Shown: piece after piece, positions 5,225 through 5,914 of the stretch
Layout of the letters: every line of letters begins with the position of its first letter
How positions within the stretch are numbered: position 1 is the stretch's first letter
DNA from: Oscillatoriophycideae cyanobacterium NC_groundwater_1537_Pr4_S-0.65um_50_18
GTDB lineage: Bacteria; Cyanobacteriota; Cyanobacteriia; Elainellales; Elainellaceae
DNA length: 64,000 nucleotides
Assembly (NCBI GenBank): GCA_016208305.1
Contig: JACQYI010000078.1
Span: 186,001 to 250,000 of the forward strand
Direction of reading: 5' to 3'
Program-made: the position numbers and the translations under genes
The notes under the pieces: model-generated
Seen by the model: only the letters and a program-made list of their open reading frames with translations
The model's database searches: none
What the model was told of the DNA's origin: nothing

Positions 5225-5914
5225 CTAAACTGTAACGGGGGCTTTGACATCCTGGCAGTAGGTTTCAAACACACCATCTAGGAATTTCCACAGCGTCTGG
5301 GCGGCTGTCGATGCCACTTCTAGAACTTCGGCTTGCTGCTGTTCGGTTTGGGCATAGGTTTCGATCAAGGTCGCAGTGGATTCAGCGTGGTAAACATCTG
5401 CTACCTGATGCACGCTAAAGAATTCGTAATCAGCAGGGTTTTCCATGCCATAGAAGCGCTTCAAACCATCAATTTTGACGGCGGCCACTTCAGGGATTTG
5501 CGATTCATAGACGTACAAAGCCGCCAACCCTGCGTAAAACGGCGAGTTCAGGCAAAGGTTGCGGAAGGTGGAGATCAGATCAGCCGTGGTTTCGAGCTGA
5601 GGGGTAGCCTCTAGGTCAGAGGCGCTGCTGCCCAGAGCGATCGCAAAGTTACGCCACAAAGCTGGGTGGTTTTTTTCGCCCTGTTCTTCACCGACAAGGT
5701 TTTCTAGAATTTCTTGTCGCACAGCCAGGTGAGGCGTATTGTAGTGAACGGCGCTGATGTAGGTCGGGAAAGCCAGCACATGATGAAAATACTGCTCGGC
5801 GTAATGTCTGAGATGGTCACGAGTCAGATTGCCTTCTGTCCAGGCTTGATAAAACGGATGCGTCAGCAAGTGCTTTTGAGCCACGATCGCATCTAACTGT
5901 TGGCGAAGGGTCAT
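5225..5914 (-). CDS. CADD-family diiron/dimanganese oxygenase, candidate pABA synthase
   Basis: The product belongs to the heme-oxygenase-like metal oxygenase group that includes Chlamydia CADD, a self-sacrificing enzyme that makes para-aminobenzoate for folate from one of its own tyrosines. Numbering from the ATG at 5914 (229 residues), the metal ligands E76, H83, E137, H169, D173 and H176 all sit exactly five residues before the CADD ligands I remember (E81, H88, E142, H174, D178, H181). With the same offset, CADD Tyr27 is Tyr22 (in HPFYQAW) and Lys152 is Lys147. The frame stays open up to 6019, but the ATG pair at 5917/5914 has CTGGGAG just upstream and gives the normal family length. It is a monocistronic gene, convergent with the sigma gene. 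Confidence 0.88.
   Translation of the reverse strand: MTLRQQLDAIVAQKHLLTHPFYQAWTEGNLTRDHLRHYAEQYFHHVLAFPTYISAVHYNTPHLAVRQEILENLVGEEQGEKNHPALWRNFAIALGSSASDLEATPQLETTADLISTFRNLCLNSPFYAGLAALYVYESQIPEVAAVKIDGLKRFYGMENPADYEFFSVHQVADVYHAESTATLIETYAQTEQQQAEVLEVASTAAQTLWKFLDGVFETYCQDVKAPVTV

Follow-up and report, generated by a model that had tools for sequence, protein, structure and literature searches.

The Locus and Its Protein

The window, which is the whole 64,000-nucleotide stretch of DNA analysed here, carries on its minus strand a gene that belongs to the CADD/PabS family, a family already covered by the automatic annotation model TIGR04305 (Table 1). The plus strand of 5225–5914 is closed by five in-frame stops. 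No folate genes adjoin the gene in its neighbourhood, and a promoter scan gave nothing above chance. Among PDB sequences, the best match of the window protein is 9pj4 (E 2.5e-93), deposited as 4-aminobenzoate synthase, followed by CADD 1rcw (E 1.3e-53 by phmmer) and then by 8va9. The entry 9pj4 can be read as NePabS (NE1434) of Nitrosomonas europaea, whose peptides as given in PMC11965152 are contained in it. The CADD-type identity proposed in an earlier note on this DNA therefore stands, with NePabS rather than CADD as the closest characterised relative. The same note had described a match to CADD without gaps, shifted by five residues throughout. In the phmmer alignment with 1rcw, query residue 3 indeed falls on CADD residue 8, and the gapless match, put at about 125 residues, extends to about 190, with the first gap near query residue 190.

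Table 1. Position of the gene and of its functional codons in the window.
Feature	Position	Strand	Correspondence and basis
CADD/PabS-type self-sacrificing p-aminobenzoate synthase gene (putative)	5225..5914	minus	229 aa; ATG 5914-5912, stop 5227-5225; translation, PDB matches, TIGR04305, fold
Tyr22 codon	5849..5851	minus	CADD Tyr27 = NePabS Tyr25; expected pABA ring source; 74/74 homologues
Glu76 codon, metal ligand	5687..5689	minus	CADD E81; alignment and conservation
His83 codon, metal ligand	5666..5668	minus	CADD H88; alignment and conservation
Tyr136 codon, metal-selecting	5507..5509	minus	CADD Tyr141, NePabS Phe148; Tyr in 62/62 cyanobacterial copies
Glu137 codon, metal ligand	5504..5506	minus	CADD E142; alignment and conservation
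Lys147 codon	5474..5476	minus	CADD Lys152 = NePabS Lys159; expected pABA amine source; 74/74 homologues
Phe165 codon, metal-selecting	5420..5422	minus	CADD Tyr170, NePabS Phe177; Phe in 74/74
His169-x3-Asp173-x2-His176 metal-ligand motif	5387..5410	minus	CADD H174, D178, H181; alignment and conservation

The window protein scores 292.3 bits against NCBIfam TIGR04305 (fol_rel_CADD; cut-off 200), and Pfam assigns it to Haem_oxygenas_2 and TENA_THI-4. The AlphaFold2 model (pLDDT 93.9, pTM 0.90) has the seven-helix heme-oxygenase-like fold, and Foldseek with this predicted structure gives CtCADD crystals as the nearest solved folds (8vag, TM 0.90/0.96). The same fold class is found in di-metal oxidases that act on an external small substrate rather than on themselves, such as BesC, UndA and PqqC, and BesC and PqqC are recognisable relatives of the window protein. 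However, the protein stays far under the equivalog cut-offs of both families, with 61.2 bits against 500 for the BesC model NF042919 and 45.8 bits against 240 for the PqqC model TIGR02111.

Catalytic and Metal-Selecting Residues

All eight residues named in the earlier note (Y22, E76, H83, E137, K147, H169, D173, and H176) were found in the window protein. Conservation was assessed in 74 homologues, comprising 62 cyanobacterial and 12 Nitrosomonadaceae sequences. The metal ligands E76, H83, E137, H169, D173, and H176 (E-H-E-H-D-H) are invariant in this set (74/74), as are Y38, Y42, and W87, which correspond to the NePabS aromatics Tyr41, Tyr45, and Trp99 reported to be essential or rate-affecting (PMC11965152). 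Variation of Tyr22 or Lys147 among close relatives, which the earlier note held would count against its reading, was looked for, and both residues proved identical in every homologue. This invariance of the self-sacrifice pair argues against an oxidase of external substrates, as do the low BesC and PqqC scores and the finding, described below, that CADD presence follows PabB absence; such an enzyme is considered very unlikely here.

Two positions beside the metals have been reported to set the choice of metal. Tyr141/Tyr170 goes with a preference of CADD for Mn/Fe, Phe148/Phe177 with the use of Fe/Fe by NePabS, and the engineered NePabS variant F148Y is cambialistic, working with either Fe/Fe or Mn/Fe (PMC11965152). 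The pair is Tyr/Phe in all 62 cyanobacterial copies and Phe/Phe in all 12 copies from Nitrosomonadaceae. Since the natural cyanobacterial Tyr136/Phe165 equals the engineered F148Y state at both positions, the cyanobacterial copies are predicted, by analogy with that variant, to accept both metal pairs.

Folate Genes of the Window Genome

The window assembly is 6.94 Mb in size and 98.5% complete; among the relatives found, the closest with a name is Drouetiella hepatica. FolP is present (320 bits). No PabB was found in this 98.5% complete assembly, in which the TIGR00553 profile matches only three proteins, each otherwise assigned. Two of them are TrpE (best matched by TIGR00564) and an isochorismate synthase (above the TIGR00543 cut-off). 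The third, of 440 aa, has the salicylate synthase TIGR03494 as its best family at 321.6 bits, just below the cut-off of 325, and its orthologue in a second genome (G003) exceeds that cut-off with 328.4 bits. This chorismate enzyme was considered as a diverged PabB and rejected as a salicylate synthase within a siderophore cluster; the same suspicion about a protein of genome G180 was rejected likewise. The siderophore-type cluster of the window's own genome (L096:57-14469; G000:C78) contains genes for a TonB receptor, a periplasmic binding protein, an MFS exporter, a benzoate-CoA-ligase-like enzyme, the salicylate synthase, a KAS III-like enzyme, and an NRPS.

PabC was also absent from the 98.5% complete assembly, where the sole class-IV aminotransferase is of the IlvE type. 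PabA is uninformative for separating the cases because a TrpG-type amidotransferase commonly serves both pathways in the PabA role. Within the limits of an assembly that is 98% complete, the check for pab genes proposed in the earlier note thus shows a genome without PabB and PabC and with FolP. Such a gene pattern is to be expected for the family, although it does not strictly define it. Retention of FolP means that pABA is needed, which speaks against the alternative that CADD-bearing cyanobacteria import pABA or folate, that the CADD-like protein has some other role, and that loss of PabB is simple auxotrophy. Import does have precedents. Endosymbionts of Rhopalodian diatoms have been reported to lack PabAa and, being PabB-less, are interpreted as needing imported pABA, in passages of PMC12903740 that make no mention of CADD, and cyanobacteria possess a folate carrier (PMC1971073).

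CADD and PabB across Cyanobacterial Genomes

The distribution of the two systems was tabulated in 127 genomes, consisting of 60 relatives, 60 members of a second family and seven further genomes. CADD only was found in 60, PabB only in 59, both in one and neither in seven (Fisher p 7e-27, with the genomes treated without correction for kinship). All 19 of the relatives with a full-length CADD are without PabB, and 37 of the 41 relatives without CADD have it. For the second family the prediction was fixed beforehand and was largely borne out, with PabB missing from 40 of 41 CADD-bearing genomes and present in 16 of 19 others. Overall, PabB is missing in 60 of the 61 genomes with CADD, and PabC, where readable, shows a parallel pattern, most CADD-bearing genomes giving IlvE-like matches only. 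PabB calls were made by score and coverage rules and verified on representatives. Nearly all tested representatives without CADD have an extra match above the TIGR01824 or TIGR00553 aminodeoxychorismate synthase cut-off, whereas in representatives with CADD the only strong match to PabB profiles is TrpE. CADD is uncommon phylum-wide, at 9 of 292 evenly drawn genomes, but the second family has 41 carriers among its 60 genomes. The occurrence of CADD in a cyanobacterium pointed out in the earlier note is genuine, and it is a recurrent state in cyanobacteria, not a lone oddity. The alternative route to folate that the note suggested is supported by the missing PabB and PabC, the FolP present and the alternation of CADD and PabB in 119 of 127 genomes.

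The species tree was represented by a tree of TrpE from 115 genomes. The best tree requires a minimum of 23 changes in the state of CADD, strongly supported branches force 7–11 label changes, and among 10 independent pairs 6.4 differ in the predicted direction, none in the opposite direction and 3.6 not at all (median p 0.03); these counts of changes and pairs are approximate because TrpE is a single gene that may itself move. The behaviour of the independent pairs, in which lack of PabB goes with CADD and no pair runs the other way, weighs against import as the explanation of PabB loss, as does the finding that genomes of up to 11 Mb are without PabB almost only where CADD occurs. Together with the retention of FolP, these observations make import with simple auxotrophy highly improbable as an account of the CADD-bearing genomes.

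In a quick CADD tree, the Nitrosomonadaceae copies were nested among the cyanobacterial ones with support of 87–92. Transfer from cyanobacteria to Nitrosomonadaceae was considered and rejected as a claim. The AU test does not reject a single cyanobacterial clade, the constrained tree being the better one (p 0.645), and no direction of transfer is therefore claimed.

NCBIfam NF004610 gives stand-alone cyanobacterial PabB proteins (L053, L056, and L181) the name "anthranilate synthase component I". This is a probable misannotation, because several members exceed the TIGR01824 PabB cut-off and their genomes have a separate TrpE.

Exceptions and Variant Copies

A single genome, G455, has both systems, namely CADD and a fused PabA-PabB. 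The genomes with neither CADD nor PabB are G039, G049, G442, G457, G459, G001, and G035; completeness is below 80% in G001 and G035 but reaches 98% or more in G039, G049, G442, and G459. Genome search found neither PabB nor CADD in G039, G442, and G459, which are near-complete and have TrpE. The PabB-PabC pair of G001 (68% complete) is probably a contaminant, since no other genome searched comes near its fit to the proteobacterial PabC profile. The PabB-bearing genome G151 has a truncated CADD start at L077:1492-1607 (G151:C1), with about 35 codons followed by unrelated DNA, which looks like the remnant of a reverse switch with recent loss of CADD.

The 2.5 Mb genome G049, the sole genome in its family and order, is without PabB and encodes on the plus strand a strongly shrunken CADD-like protein of 191 aa (L020:1495-2070; G049:C1). 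The equivalents of Tyr27, Lys152, E81, H88, E142, and H174 are kept, and those of D178 and H181 are missing. No second copy of this variant was found among 386 genomes of the phylum, which gave ordinary CADD proteins only. Genome G041 carries two full-length CADD genes, at L189:7476-8294 (G041:C6) and L188:7546-8307 (G041:C3). On a reading of the ORFs, the second shares an island with genes for a CobW-like GTPase, a ferredoxin-like protein and a Fec-type importer and with metE, which suggests a metal- or B12-stress paralogue.

Proposed Function and Mechanism

The window gene very probably encodes a single-use pABA synthase of the CADD/PabS family that replaces PabB and PabC, in this genome and recurrently in the phylum. 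The observed basis is the family membership, the catalytic residues, the presence of FolP, the absence of PabB and PabC here and the fact that, across the genomes, CADD and PabB exclude each other almost completely. The pABA-forming reaction and the single turnover are inferred by analogy with NePabS and CADD. According to PMC11965152, NePabS draws on its Tyr25 and Lys159 residues to build pABA, and E. coli delta-pabABC is complemented by the NePabS gene. Loss of the side chains of the Tyr and the Lys is seen in NePabS and CADD alike, and a single turnover has been described for CADD (PMC11965152, PMC11363339).

Modelled on these two proteins (PMC11965152, PMC13108848), the reaction would start with two metal ions (Fe/Fe or Mn/Fe) held by the six conserved ligands, and this di-metal centre would react with O2. 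A radical would then pass by way of the aromatics Y42 and W87 to Tyr22, over a distance of about 14 A. The side chain of Tyr22 would be cut from the backbone and oxidised to a carboxylate, and Lys147 would supply the amine, so that the Tyr22-derived ring becomes pABA. Each protein molecule would be spent after one reaction, and FolP would take the resulting pABA into folate. One protein per folate seems costly for a free-living phototroph, and this consideration, along with the two full-length copies in one genome, would fit a catalytic enzyme of many turnovers in which Tyr22 and Lys147 are repaired or reloaded or free tyrosine is used. Such catalysis is, however, exceedingly improbable given the side-chain loss in NePabS and CADD, the single turnover of CADD, and the fact that no repair enzyme is apparent beside the window gene.

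Novelty and Significance

A search of an open-access library, whose scope leaves out the main subscription papers on CADD, yielded no paper on cyanobacterial CADD or PabS. Within that library, two points appear to be new, namely that cyanobacteria recurrently exchange PabB and CADD and that their CADD metal site is uniformly Tyr/Phe. It is conceivable, although we lean slightly against it, that free-living oxygenic phototrophs have switched many times, in both directions, between catalytic synthesis from chorismate and suicide synthesis of pABA, and that Tyr/Phe forms a third metal class, working with Fe/Fe or Mn/Fe, that keeps folate supplied under metal shortage.

The organisms in which the suicide route to pABA has been characterised are an obligate parasite and an ammonia oxidiser, and there it might be taken for an oddity. 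Repeated swaps between it and PabB in cyanobacteria with large genomes would turn it into a normal evolutionary option; they also prompt one to ask why a protein of 229 residues should be spent per folate. Genomes with CADD and without PabB look auxotrophic for pABA in annotation but probably are not, and metabolic models that assume PabB need correction. Close strains with opposite states, even inside one genus, make cost and benefit directly testable.

Comparison with Known Systems

The closest solved relative of the window protein is NePabS (9pj4), and homologues from Nitrosomonadaceae are 57–62% identical to the window protein. NePabS has the same ligands and the equivalents of its sacrificed residues (Tyr25/Lys159) and of Tyr41, Tyr45, and Trp99 in common with the window protein. 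It differs in a 9-residue insertion and in having Phe at both metal-selecting positions (F148/F177) with Fe/Fe, whereas the window protein has Tyr136/Phe165. CADD of Chlamydia trachomatis (CT610; 1rcw, 8va9) is about 42% identical with a fold TM of 0.90/0.96, and all ligands and both sacrificed residues are common to the two proteins. Unlike the window protein with its Tyr/Phe pair, CADD is Tyr/Tyr and prefers Mn/Fe, and its gene belongs to a folate cluster, which is not true of the window gene. The classical cyanobacterial PabB and PabC (ADC synthase and lyase) make the same product, pABA, as is proposed for the window protein; their fold is unrelated to that of CADD, their substrate is chorismate, and they are true catalysts. 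BesC and PqqC act on external substrates, PqqC being metal-free, and they have a heme-oxygenase-like fold as in the window protein, which scores below both family cut-offs.
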